Assembly: GCA_024654575.1 (NCBI GenBank)
Contig: JANLHG010000019.1
Coordinates: 1-44,807, forward strand
DNA length: 44,807 nucleotides
Source: Patescibacteria group bacterium
Lineage (GTDB): Bacteria > Patescibacteriota > Minisyncoccia > Phycocordibacterales > PALSA-1337
Reading direction: 5' to 3'
The notes beneath the pieces are model-generated. The model made no database searches, was not told the DNA's origin, and saw only the letters and a list, made by a program, of their open reading frames with translations. The stretch's first letter is position 1, and every line of letters begins with the position of its first letter. The position numbers were made by a program, and so were the translations under genes. This document shows positions 1 to 5,048 of this stretch, in pieces.

Positions 1-129
1 GTTCGCCACGAACAGAGGGTCGGTGTTGATCCGAGTTGCAACTTCGTCGGCGTTCTCACCGACTGCAACCCAGAGACGTTGGCTGGCGGCGTTGATGTCG
101 CCAGCGGGAACTTGAGTCCAATTTTTCAT
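1..129 (-). CDS. Hypothetical protein, N-terminal part only (truncated by window edge): MKNWTQVPAGDINAASQRLWVAVGENADEVATRINTDPLFVAN...
   Basis: Open minus-strand frame from ATG (cat at 127-129) to the window edge; preceded by a promoter module shared with the DGR target gene. Confidence 0.6.
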   Translation of the reverse strand, partial: MKNWTQVPAGDINAASQRLWVAVGENADEVATRINTDPLFVAN

Positions 130-280: not shown

Positions 281-1349
281 CTATTCTTTAAGCCAAAACC
301 AAAACTTATTGAGTATCTCTTGACTTAATTCATACTCATCCGCATGAGACAAAACACCTAAATAAGAATTAAGCGATGATTTAAGACTTAATTTGTTTAT
401 TTTTCCTTTTTTATATAGACAAACAGTTTTTTTTAGATTTTTAGGAATTCTTTGTTTTGTTTTTGTTCTTAGTTTTATATGTTTTGGTAAGATAACATAT
501 CCAAGAAAATCAATACCTTGATTATGTTTTCTTATAATTACTTTTTTAGGATGAAGTGTTAATTTTAATTTCTCTAATAAAAACAATTGCAATTTAGGAA
601 TTAATTCTATAAGATAATTCTTATTGTTTGATACGATGACAAAATCATCAGTGTATCGAACATAATGTTTAACTTTTAATATATGTTTAATAAATTGATC
701 AAACTCATTCATATAAATATTAGCAAAAATTTGCGAAGTCAAATTACCAATTGGTATACCTTTTCGGATAACAGAAGTACTCTCTCTCTCTCTCTCTCTC
801 GTAAGTGGTAAAATAACTAGAAATAATTTCACGAATAAGAAATCGAACTTTTTCGTCTTTAATCTTTCTTTCAATAATTGTAATCAAGATATCTTGATTA
901 ACAGAATCAAAGAATTTTCGTACATCACATTTCAAAGCAAAACATTGATGCATGTGGTTTTTACTTACTACACGAATCATATCAGCCACTTTTTTCATAC
1001 CTTTATGAGTTCCTTTGCCAATTCGACAGGAATACGAATCATTAATGAAGGTTGGTTCAAATATTTTATACAAAACACAAAATATAGCATGATGGAATAC
1101 TCTATCGCGTACTGTAGCCTTATGGATTCGTCGAAGCTTTGGATCGTGAATCCAAAATCCTCTGTATGGTCCATGCTTGTACATTTCATTTTTCAGATCT
1201 CTGTACAAATTAAAAATGTTTTGTTCAAGATTCAGCTCAAATTCAATGATATCAGGCTTGTTCCGCTTATCAGACTTAAATACCTCCCACGCATAAAAGA
1301 GTGTCTGTGGAGAAATTATCGACCAATATAAATCTTTATAAATTTTCAT
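281..1349 (-). CDS. DGR-type reverse transcriptase, interrupted by a frame break at a (TC)10 tract; N-terminal frame 744-1349, C-terminal frame 281-~800
   Basis: N-part MKIYKDLYWSI...KCDVRKFFDSVNQDIL; C-part GIPIGNLTSQIFANIYMNEFDQF (DGR-type GNLTSQ in place of QGxxxSP) and RYTDDFVIVS catalytic motif; frames differ by one register at the repeat. Confidence 0.9.
780..800. repeat. Dinucleotide microsatellite c(tc)10 inside the RT coding sequence
   Basis: Direct reading: tac|tctctctctctctctctctc|gtaag. Confidence 0.97.
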
Positions 1350-1351
1350 AT

Positions 1352-1702
1352 ATGAATGACCTAGATATACCAATCTTCAAAAAATCCTACGATCTGTACA
1401 AGGAGTTTTACACTCTCCGCCTCTCTGTACCCAAGCAAGATCGATATACGCTCTGGCAAAAATGCGAGAGTCTGTTAATCGAGGTGCTAGAAGGCATTCT
1501 TTTTGCAAGCCAGCAGTCTAAATCCGATAAATTACCAATCTTGGAAAAGACGAGTGTCAAACTCAATTTTCTGCGAGTCTGTGTTCGCCTCATGAAGGAT
1601 ATAAAAGCGATTAACGCTAAGAAATACACTATCATCGAGGCAAACCTCGACGAGATAGGAAGAATGCTTGGAGGTTGGATTAAATTCACGAAAGAACATT
1701 AA
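1352..1702 (+). CDS. avd: DGR accessory variability determinant, Avd-like four-helix-bundle protein
   Basis: MNDLDIPIFKKSYDLYKEFYTLRLSVPKQDRYTLWQKCESLLIEVLEGILFASQQSKSDKLPILEKTSVKLNFLRVCVRLMKDIKAINAKKYTIIEANLDEIGRMLGGWIKFTKEH resembles Avd proteins; lies between TR and RT. Confidence 0.85.
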   Translation: MNDLDIPIFKKSYDLYKEFYTLRLSVPKQDRYTLWQKCESLLIEVLEGILFASQQSKSDKLPILEKTSVKLNFLRVCVRLMKDIKAINAKKYTIIEANLDEIGRMLGGWIKFTKEH

Positions 1703-1733: not shown

Positions 1734-1754
1734 CCTTGGATAGAGCTATGACTG

Positions 1755-1870
1755 CCTGGCAGCCGACAAGCCGATGTTGTCATTGCGGTTGTCGTCGTTC
1801 CAGTTGTTGATGTTGAGACCCTTGGCATCGAAGTTGCCGACGTTGACGCGGTTACCGTCCGAGTCGAGAT
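1755..1870 (-). repeat. DGR template repeat (TR)
   Basis: 116 bp aligning without gaps to 2338-2453 (offset 583); 18 mismatches, all at T on + (A on the coding strand); many AAC codons in the corresponding frame. Confidence 0.96.
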
Positions 1871-2328: not shown

Positions 2329-3132
2329 TCACTGCTTCCTGGCAGCCGACAAGCCGATGCTGTCATGGCGGTAGCCGTCGAGCCAGAAGCTGACGTAGAG
2401 ACCCTCGGCATCGAAGTCGCCGACGCCGACGCGGTGACCGCCCGAGTCGAGACTGGACGTCCGAACGTAGATGCTTGCAAAAAGTCTGATACCACGGACC
2501 TCAAAATAGGTCGTGATGAACCAACACATCTCGGTAATGTTCGGCACTTTCTCGATTGCGGACAGAAGCTTGTTCTGCTCGTTCCAGTTTTTGTTGGTCG
2601 AGTTCAAAACAGGCGTCTTCTTGATCAGGAGCCAACCGAAGGACGTCTTGTTCTCGCGGGCGAACTTCTGATCTGCATACCACCCACCCGTCTTCAAGTA
2701 GAAGTGGGCGGATTGAACCTCCCGAACGTCGAGCGTTGACATCGCTGTGGGCGGAGCAGGCATGACGGCGTAACCGTTGTCCTTGCACCACTTGAGCACG
2801 TCCTCCGACGGCAGACTTTCGGCGAGTGCCGTGATCTGTTCATCGGTGTAGATGATACTCGTGCGAGTCTTGCTGACTTCCTCCGGAGAGATGAAGTCCA
2901 CACCGAGAATTGATTGTGCCAGACCATAGTCGGGAGCTTTCGCTGAGAAACGGCTAATACCTTTTGCGAGATATTCGGCGAAGCCTGGATGCTCGTTCAG
3001 AATCTGTGCACTTTCGTCGTTGAGTCCCGCCTTGTTGTACTGAGCGCGGAACGTTTCGGTGGCTCTCTGTCCTTTCGGACTATCTGCAGTTACTAGTGCA
3101 GATGTGTTCAACTTTTTTTTCATCGACATCAT
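2329..3132 (-). CDS. DGR target protein with C-terminal variable region (C-type-lectin/FGE-like fold expected)
   Basis: ORF MMSMKKKLNTSALVTADSPKGQ...SLDSGGHRVGVGDFDAEGLYVSFWLDGYRHDSIGLSAARKQ; VR spans the last codons; start ATG chosen downstream of promoter B. Confidence 0.9.
   Translation of the reverse strand: MMSMKKKLNTSALVTADSPKGQRATETFRAQYNKAGLNDESAQILNEHPGFAEYLAKGISRFSAKAPDYGLAQSILGVDFISPEEVSKTRTSIIYTDEQITALAESLPSEDVLKWCKDNGYAVMPAPPTAMSTLDVREVQSAHFYLKTGGWYADQKFARENKTSFGWLLIKKTPVLNSTNKNWNEQNKLLSAIEKVPNITEMCWFITTYFEVRGIRLFASIYVRTSSLDSGGHRVGVGDFDAEGLYVSFWLDGYRHDSIGLSAARKQ
2338..2453 (-). repeat. DGR variable repeat (VR)
   Basis: Aligned base by base to TR 1755-1870; adenine-specific substitutions. 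Confidence 0.96.
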
Positions 3133-3206
3133 CTTTCTTCTATTGTTTTTTATCGAAAACGCTCGATGGCGACTTGTTTCTGATTGAAACAAGATTTATC
3201 AAAGAA

Positions 3207-3246
3207 CTACATTTATTATTATATACCTGATGTAGATTTATGTCAA
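3207..3246 (-). promoter_or_regulatory. Sigma70-like promoter B of DGR target gene (TTGACA-N17-TATAAT)
   Basis: tgtcaa 3241-3246, attata 3218-3223, spacer 17; inverted hexamers 3207-3212/3230-3235. Confidence 0.8.
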
Positions 3247-3251
3247 CAGGT

Positions 3252-5048
3252 TTACGCCTTAAGATTATGCATCTTATGAAAATAAGAGTTCGCATTTTTT
3301 AGAAGCAGATCAGGTGTTCCTTCTTCAATTATTTTTCCATCTTCAAGTGCAATAATTTTATCGGTGTTCATTATTGTAGACAAACGATGAGCAATAACAA
3401 TCACAGTCAACTTCCCTCTTAAATCTTCAATAACTTTTTGAATTCTAGTTTCCGATTCGTTATCAAGCGCACTAGTGGCTTCATCTAATACTAAAATTGA
3501 CGGCTTACGCACCAATATTCTAGCGATAATAATTCTCTGTCTTTGTCCTTGTGAAAGAGTCACTCCTCGTTCTCCCACTACCGTGTCATATCCATCAGGT
3601 AATTCTGAAATAAAATCATCAACATAAGCCTGTTGTGCTGATATTTTAATATCTTCTTTAGTAATTTTCTTATCATAAAAAGAAATATTGTTTGCGATGG
3701 TGTCATTTATAATAAAAATATCTTGAGGTACATAACCAATATTTTTACGCCATTGGATTAAATCAATATCATTAGCATTTTTACCATCAACAGTAACTAA
3801 TCCGTCAGTTGGAATAAAAAGACGTAACAACAAATCAACAATCGTAGTTTTTCCAGAACCAGATGGCCCAATAAGCCCGACCATCTCTCCTCTTTTTATA
3901 GAAAAACTAACATCTTTCAAGACCGAAACAGATGTACCGTATTCAAAACGAACATTTTTAAAACTAAGTTCATTTTTAAAAATAAAATTATCTCCTGAAC
4001 TAACATACTCATGCATTTTTTTTGCATCATCACTAAAATCTTGAACTGCCTTAAAATATGGATAAGAATCATTAATCACATGTAAATATCTTTGTAAATT
4101 TTGAACATAAATAAAAATTCTCTGAATGATATAGACAACTACTGCCAAAGCGGCGATATTAAATCCCGGCATTCTGTAAGTAAAACCAAATATAGTAAGT
4201 ACAAACATAAGCCCTAAAGGTTGCATCAAGGAAGGTGGAATGAGTTTAAAAAAAGCCGCTTTAATTCTATATACCTTCATAGTAGCGAAATAAGCAAAAC
4301 CTTTTTTAATCACTTCATCATCAACTGCCATAGCTTTTACGGTCTTCATACCCAACAGATTTTCATTTATATGGTGTGAAATGTCACGATTAACCGACTC
4401 AGCTTGTCTAGCAATTCTTCTAGTCCTTGATAAGAGCGGTTTAAATAAAAAAATAAAAAAGAAACCGGCTAAAATAGTAAGAATAGTAATAGGTAATGAT
4501 ATATTTATAGCAACTAAACTATACATAATCAAACTAGCGATCGCCACAATAAGCCCTCCGAAGTTATTTAAAAGCTGTTCGCTATAATCAACATTAGTTA
4601 AAACCGCAGTGTTTAAATGTCCAAGCTGTTGCTTGAGAAGATATGGCCAACTAGCTTCAATTGTATTTTTAAAAACCTTTCGGCGAGTTTTTTCCGAGTA
4701 ATCAGCTGTAATTTTAATAGAAAGATAATCGCCAACAATAACAGCAATAGTTTTGAATATAAATAATCCGATTACCAAAAAAAGTAAATATTTTAGTCTA
4801 AACTCTATATGAAAATAATTAAAACCTTGTGCTAAAGTTCTAGAAATTAAATCATCTCCATGATTTCCATTTCCAGTCACAAGAGCAAAAATAGGAATAA
4901 AAGCATTAATACCAATACCTTCCAAAAGAGCACTCAAAAAGCCAGTCCCCGCTAGAGCGATTATTTTCAATTTATATTCTCCAAAACCCTTATTAAAAGA
5001 CCTCAAAAAAGCTAGTAAATTGGTACGTTTAAGATATGAAATAAACAT
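3252..5048 (-). CDS. ABC transporter, fused TMD-NBD (MsbA/PglK-like lipid-linked glycan exporter)
   Basis: Walker A GPSGSGKTT, signature LSQGQRQRI, Walker B ILVLDEATSALD; N-terminal multi-TM. Confidence 0.9.
   Translation of the reverse strand: MFISYLKRTNLLAFLRSFNKGFGEYKLKIIALAGTGFLSALLEGIGINAFIPIFALVTGNGNHGDDLISRTLAQGFNYFHIEFRLKYLLFLVIGLFIFKTIAVIVGDYLSIKITADYSEKTRRKVFKNTIEASWPYLLKQQLGHLNTAVLTNVDYSEQLLNNFGGLIVAIASLIMYSLVAINISLPITILTILAGFFFIFLFKPLLSRTRRIARQAESVNRDISHHINENLLGMKTVKAMAVDDEVIKKGFAYFATMKVYRIKAAFFKLIPPSLMQPLGLMFVLTIFGFTYRMPGFNIAALAVVVYIIQRIFIYVQNLQRYLHVINDSYPYFKAVQDFSDDAKKMHEYVSSGDNFIFKNELSFKNVRFEYGTSVSVLKDVSFSIKRGEMVGLIGPSGSGKTTIVDLLLRLFIPTDGLVTVDGKNANDIDLIQWRKNIGYVPQDIFIINDTIANNISFYDKKITKEDIKISAQQAYVDDFISELPDGYDTVVGERGVTLSQGQRQRIIIARILVRKPSILVLDEATSALDNESETRIQKVIEDLRGKLTVIVIAHRLSTIMNTDKIIALEDGKIIEEGTPDLLLKNANSYFHKMHNLKA

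Follow-up and report, generated by a model that had tools for sequence, protein, structure and literature searches.

A GA repeat as a probable phase-variable switch in the reverse transcriptase gene of Patescibacteria diversity-generating retroelements

Results

A dinucleotide tract divides the reverse transcriptase gene

The stretch of DNA analysed here (the window, 44,807 nucleotides) is the whole of contig C7 (JANLHG010000019.1) in a 25-contig, 685,770-bp assembly of a Patescibacteria group bacterium. It carries a complete diversity-generating retroelement (DGR) with a reverse transcriptase (RT), a bAvd protein, a template repeat (TR), and target genes with variable repeats (VRs). The RT gene, the only one in the genome, lies on the minus strand and is divided between two reading frames. 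Its first half (801..1349, with an ATG at 1349 and a frame open from 1373) extends from the N-terminus to motif A KCDVRKFFDSVNQ and ...EIISSYFTTY. The second half (281..779), in the other frame, encodes GIPIGNLTSQ, the catalytic RYTDDF, and the thumb. Between them is a 21-nt (GA)10G tract (780..800, minus strand; c(tc)10 on the plus strand), which is the proposed slipped-strand switch and occupies a site common to 27 other RT alleles.

As assembled, the upstream open reading frame (ORF; 744-1373, minus) has the C-terminal end ...SSYFTTYEREREREYFCYPKRYTNW before its stop. This includes an out-of-frame tail (YFCYPKRYTNW, 744..779, minus; stop at 744-746) that overlaps the second half and would end the product of this out-of-frame (OFF) allele. 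The downstream ORF (281-874, minus) reads ...RERERESTSVIRKGIPIGNLTSQ...RYTDDF...FWFWLKE up to its stop. The two RT halves match complementary parts (8-107 and 101-205) of the 205-position Pfam RVT_1 profile. Together, the ORFs and profile matches confirm the proposal of the first-pass annotation that c(tc)10 at 780-800 is the frame break of an otherwise intact DGR RT, and its arithmetic for joining the halves by gain or loss of repeat units was checked and is correct. The GxPxGNxTSQ and YxDD motifs of DGR-group RTs are both present. With an in-frame (ON) relative (L055) and its alignment, the nearest PDB entry is the BPP-1 DGR RT, 8ub7 (profile 6e-63; Foldseek rank 1). No other dinucleotide run of at least 6 units occurs in the 44.8-kb window, and no other (GA) tract of at least 6.5 units occurs in the 686-kb genome.

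The remaining DGR components lie close by. A bAvd-like accessory protein (1352..1702, plus strand; ORF from 1301, first ATG at 1352; Pfam bAvd, 5.1e-17) is encoded divergently from the RT. The TR (1752..1869, minus strand) is 118 nt long and contains 32 adenines. VR1 (2335..2452, minus strand) forms the C-terminus of target protein 1 (2329..3192, minus strand) and differs from the TR at 18 positions, 17 of which are TR adenines. The 5' end of the gene for target protein 2 is located at 1..129 (minus strand), and the gene runs on into contig C18, whose end has an 83-bp exact overlap with the window start. VR2 (C18:180934-181051) has 16 differences from the TR, 15 at TR adenines. The one non-adenine difference is common to VR1 and VR2 and resides in the 3' end of the repeat, where TR and VR usually differ (the initiation of mutagenic homing sequences, IMH/IMH*). 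Because the remaining non-adenine positions are identical, both targets appear to have been rewritten recently from this TR.

The tract recurs in ON and OFF lengths among relatives

Relatives were gathered by protein searches and by a pattern search for a GA run followed after 8-38 nt by GxPIGNLT codons, for which a reversed-pattern control gave 0 matches in every scan. A (GA)n tract of 4-19 units was found at the same RT site in 28 DGR RT alleles from many Patescibacteria families. These include the first alleles collected (G010, G034, G437, L035, G006, G145, G123, two loci of G167, G275, G361, G126, and G431), those added later (G644 and G580 from a class scan, 11 loci in 10 further genomes from a phylum scan, and G166), and the window itself. 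G223, whose short, interrupted tract is in frame but whose gene has stops elsewhere, was left out of the count.

The linker tract is in frame in four alleles, namely G034 (10 units), G167:C3 (11), G431 (11), and G1091 (13). It is out of frame in the other 24, with the two wrong phases split 14 to 10. Both ON and OFF lengths are present among related genomes whose RT is otherwise intact, and all 10 of the close relatives that carry no linker tract are in frame. The first-pass annotation had pointed out that an in-frame length in every relative would indicate an assembly error, and unrelated lesions a plain pseudogene. Neither pattern was found: most alleles are out of frame, and the OFF alleles are open in both halves, with the second half under strong selection.

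A single origin of the linker tract was considered and is not established, as 8 label changes are required on the RT tree and well supported branches force no fewer than 2 of them. The G123 and G644 alleles fall in a deeply separate RT clade. This tree speaks of the linker tract only, and some of its 'tract-free' rows carry N-terminal tracts (L150, which is G092). A viral source of the tract was rejected because the tract pattern had 0 matches in viral contigs.

Two alleles carry additional features. One RT linker (L176, G006:C2) has (GA)6 followed by G9, which places two unstable repeats in series. Another RT (L167, G644:C2) appears to have an in-frame inserted stretch in its first half (FLCHSERVLESRNLP...GMTEMG) that resembles a small mobile palindromic repeat.

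Selection, codon use, and predicted structure

Alleles G034 (10 units, ON) and G437 (6 units, OFF) are ~92% identical at the DNA level. Between them, the 160 codons past the break show 31 synonymous changes and 1 nonsynonymous change, corresponding to a ratio of nonsynonymous to synonymous substitution rates (dN/dS) of 0.006, compared with 0.036 before the break. Selection past the break in the OFF allele therefore seems too strong for a dead gene, whose second half would not look like this.

The tract codons are exclusively GAG and AGA (P from 0.0025 to 4e-8 when tested against the codon usage of the gene in question), and because of this purity the DNA repeat itself appears to be maintained. 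The idea that the (ER)n peptide itself has a function was rejected on the same grounds. In the predicted structure of the RT from an in-frame relative (mean predicted local distance difference test score, pLDDT, of 84.9), the tract region (residues 193-211) has pLDDT values below 50 and is one of two disordered segments. Because this disordered loop is located between motif A and GxPIGNLTSQ, the model suggests that unit number can probably vary without harm to the RT fold.

The MutS ATPase domain was found in 0 of the 14 tract genomes tested, compared with 11 of 14 control genomes. Since the tract genomes tested lack MutS, dinucleotide slippage in them should be fast, given what is known of mismatch repair.

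OFF elements bear marks of adenine-directed homing

The TR/VR patterns point to past mutagenic retrohoming by these DGRs. In 22 TR/VR pairs from OFF elements, 398 of 684 template A sites are changed, compared with 23 of 1982 other bases. The corresponding values for 4 pairs from ON elements are 54 of 116 and 5 of 362. Because their TR-VR differences are almost confined to template adenines, the OFF elements appear to have diversified recently, and by this measure they look no older than the ON elements. For example, the VRs of G437 and G034 differ at 16 positions, 15 of which are at TR adenines, and besides its adenine changes the G437 VR carries a base specific to the TR of G437. The presence of this base indicates that the G437 lineage homed after its split from G034, with an RT that is now out of frame as assembled.

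Unstable repeats elsewhere in DGR RT genes and beyond

Tracts of (GA) with at least 8 units occur in 29 of 277 genomes of the order. By manual reading of ~34 such tracts, several of which could not be placed, about half fall in DGR genes: the RT linker accounts for 7, the RT 5' end for 10, and Avd for 1. The remainder include tracts where genes for secreted proteins or prepilins begin and one within an HsdS.

The tracts at the RT 5' end represent a second architecture, with (GA)9-27 in an N-terminal RT leader (L219, L222, L225, L232, L239-L242, and L245). In seven of them an ATG precedes the tract by 66-69 nt and the leader resembles MRNN..QISLFD; two of these (G186 and G076) are in frame and five are out of frame. 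G043:C7 and G180:C11 (27 units) also look OFF and the state of G215 is ambiguous, giving 2 ON, 7 OFF, and 1 ambiguous N-terminal alleles overall. Most of these loci have adenine-biased TR/VR pairs as well.

Listed repeats are found within the RT or a short way upstream of it in 44 of 61 RT genes examined. A run of G8-G12 lies near the RT start in 31 of the 61 (L010-L031 and L102-L153), and one gene has (GT)16 there. Runs of G or C of at least 8 nt are strongly enriched there, with 39 in the 84 kb that make up the RT regions versus 2 in 217 kb of flanking DNA. Poly-G tracts are part of the coding sequence in some genes and precede the likely start codon in others, and the RT set classed as intact in a first pass includes genes of this kind. 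The recurrence of the linker tract supports the slipped-strand reading, and the N-terminal architecture and the poly-G tracts, which occur in other RT subclades, go beyond what the first-pass annotation described.

Several other repeat-bearing genes were observed. In G016:C38 (L235/L259), (GA)11 lies in frame in the Avd N-terminus, and the adjacent RT open frame is unusual at 977 amino acids. Tracts of (GA)7-15 are found just ahead of the signal peptide of secreted proteins (L072 at G010:C4:56645, L221, L224, L229, and L236); some of them do not share the frame of the start codon, which suggests that these are probable phase-variable surface proteins. An HsdS-like specificity subunit (L262, G117:C30) contains (GA)8 out of frame, and two prepilin genes of G069 (L238 and L263) each have (GA)9 at their start.

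Discussion

A proposed contingency switch on a targeted mutator

We hypothesize that the tract subjects the DGR RT to slipped-strand phase variation, and thereby acts as a contingency switch on a targeted mutator. This reading is very probably correct. As in genes that vary in phase through simple sequence repeats (SSRs), the tract is a pure short tandem repeat whose unit number sets the RT frame. The phase-variable switch put forward in the first-pass annotation is further supported by the return of the tract to a single site, the mixture of phases, a difference between ON and OFF lengths in close relatives, homing in OFF elements, and the loss of MutS.

By this mechanism, slipped-strand mispairing would add or remove GA units, and the changes would go uncorrected in cells without MutS. 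Changes in unit number would thereby shift GxPIGNLTSQ, the YTDD active site, and the thumb, all in the second RT half, into or out of frame. An in-frame tract would yield a full-length RT with a disordered (ER)n loop, making adenine-directed rewriting of target genes possible, and an out-of-frame tract would yield a truncated protein without the active site, leaving the targets frozen. Because the state would be heritable and reversible, a population would be expected to consist mostly of OFF cells with an ON minority that diversifies. We infer slippage within populations, loss of activity in the OFF state, and a benefit of gating.

Several points weigh against a switch of this kind. The frame states come from consensus assemblies, each of which gives one tract length, and the ON/OFF pair G034 and G437 is ~8% apart and so is a comparison between lineages. 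In-frame alleles (4 of 28) also fall below the one third expected from free length drift, which fits a bias toward OFF, albeit in a small sample. In addition, OFF alleles could leak through transcriptional or ribosomal slippage on the tract, and this is the main open rival.

In its full form, this rival holds that the GA run is a recoding site, at which frameshifting or transcriptional slippage yields a constant low amount of full-length RT at any tract length, with no true switch. Such an explanation is favored by the GC-rich hairpins that some alleles, such as G010, G167b, G126, and G896a, have directly 3' of the tract, and by the predominance of OFF alleles that nevertheless show recent homing. 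However, with both wrong phases represented, a single fixed -1 or +1 event cannot fit all alleles, many alleles carry no hairpin (mean z of -0.8 after the tract and -0.6 before it), and in-frame alleles occur. Moreover, classical slippery heptamers are not dinucleotide runs. We therefore regard recoding as improbable, although it is the strongest of the competing explanations. A conserved hairpin after the tract was also considered as an active part and was rejected because it is found in a subset of alleles only, and the locus does not behave as a programmed frameshift gene given that both offsets occur, some alleles are in frame, and the stem is not consistent. The subset with GC-rich hairpins (e.g. 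GGCGCTTCGCGCC) right after the tract includes L157, L159, L154, L213, and L217.

The window allele is out of frame as assembled, and passages of the DiGReF paper (PMC3521204) report DGR RTs inactivated by frameshift, nonsense mutation, or insertion, so the gene might be a dying pseudogene that was broken by chance slippage and is now decaying. This is quite unlikely, because neither half has another lesion, the break always falls within the tract, dN/dS past the break is very low in the related OFF allele, and non-adenine TR/VR differences are nearly absent. Repeat counts are error-prone and the sources are metagenome assemblies, which raises the prospect that the gene is truly in frame in all cells and that the break is an assembly or sequencing error. 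Still, two dozen out-of-frame alleles come from independent assemblies, the tract is retained at one site over deep divergence, and a gene that is in frame would have no need of repeat purity, making this account very unlikely. Least credible of all is a split RT, in which a separate polypeptide initiated internally would supply the second half and associate with the first. Although the GA run is similar to a ribosome-binding site and both halves remain open, 7 of 13 OFF alleles examined lack a start codon before GxPIGNLTSQ in the second-half frame, none has one at a shared place, and four alleles encode a continuous single protein.

Beyond the linker tract, it is reasonably likely that Patescibacteria DGRs across much of the phylum form a two-tier hypermutation system, in which unstable repeats stochastically license a targeted mutator that in turn rewrites its targets. 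The first tier would comprise linker GA tracts, GA or poly-G tracts at RT starts, and possibly the Avd repeat, with MutS loss keeping this tier fast.

Relation to known systems

The locus resembles BPP-1-type DGRs and those of Patescibacteria 'DGR clade 2' (Roux et al. 2021, PMC8144416) in its RT, bAvd, TR, C-terminal VR, and adenine-directed differences, but differs in that its RT gene has a frame-switching repeat tract. It likewise resembles SSR contingency loci (the H. pylori oipA CT repeat and loci of Neisseria and Haemophilus) in having a coding repeat, ON/OFF states set by unit number, and phases mixed among relatives; as at contingency loci elsewhere, Patescibacteria repeats also occur in secreted proteins, prepilins, and HsdS. 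In contrast to those loci, which switch surface structures or methyltransferases, the gene switched here would itself be a targeted mutator, and the tract of the window class lies mid-gene, in a disordered loop. In Salmonella mutL, a precedent for the gating of mutability, slipped-strand gain and loss of a repeat toggles mutability (Chen et al. 2010, PMC2955026). That switch affects the genome-wide mutation rate via mismatch repair, whereas a DGR RT switch would gate mutation limited to variable repeats.

Passages of the DGR literature yielded no mention of a frame-switching tract in a DGR RT, and searches of open-access papers found no SSR-switched DGR RT, in keeping with the first-pass annotation, which knew of none. 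DGRs and repeat-based phase variation are each well known. Passages of Roux et al. (PMC8144416) describe DGR clades 2 (Patescibacteria) and 3 as having lower apparent activity. Speculatively, random OFF states could contribute to this in Patescibacteria.

DGRs raise the question of how a cell keeps down the cost of an element that mutates itself. With an RT that is switched at random and heritably, diversification would be confined to a small part of the population, and the rest would retain target variants already proven. The switch reading gives a prediction at the level of reads that relates tract phase to VR diversity, and it implies that 'truncated' RTs in surveys should not be dismissed as dead.

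Further observations at the locus

The candidate ATGs of the divergent RT and Avd genes are 2 bp apart (window 1347-1354), an arrangement in which the 5' control region of each gene would fall inside the other. A 67-bp repeat (88% alike) at 213-279 and 3196-3262 is located upstream of both DGR target genes and is perhaps a shared promoter region.
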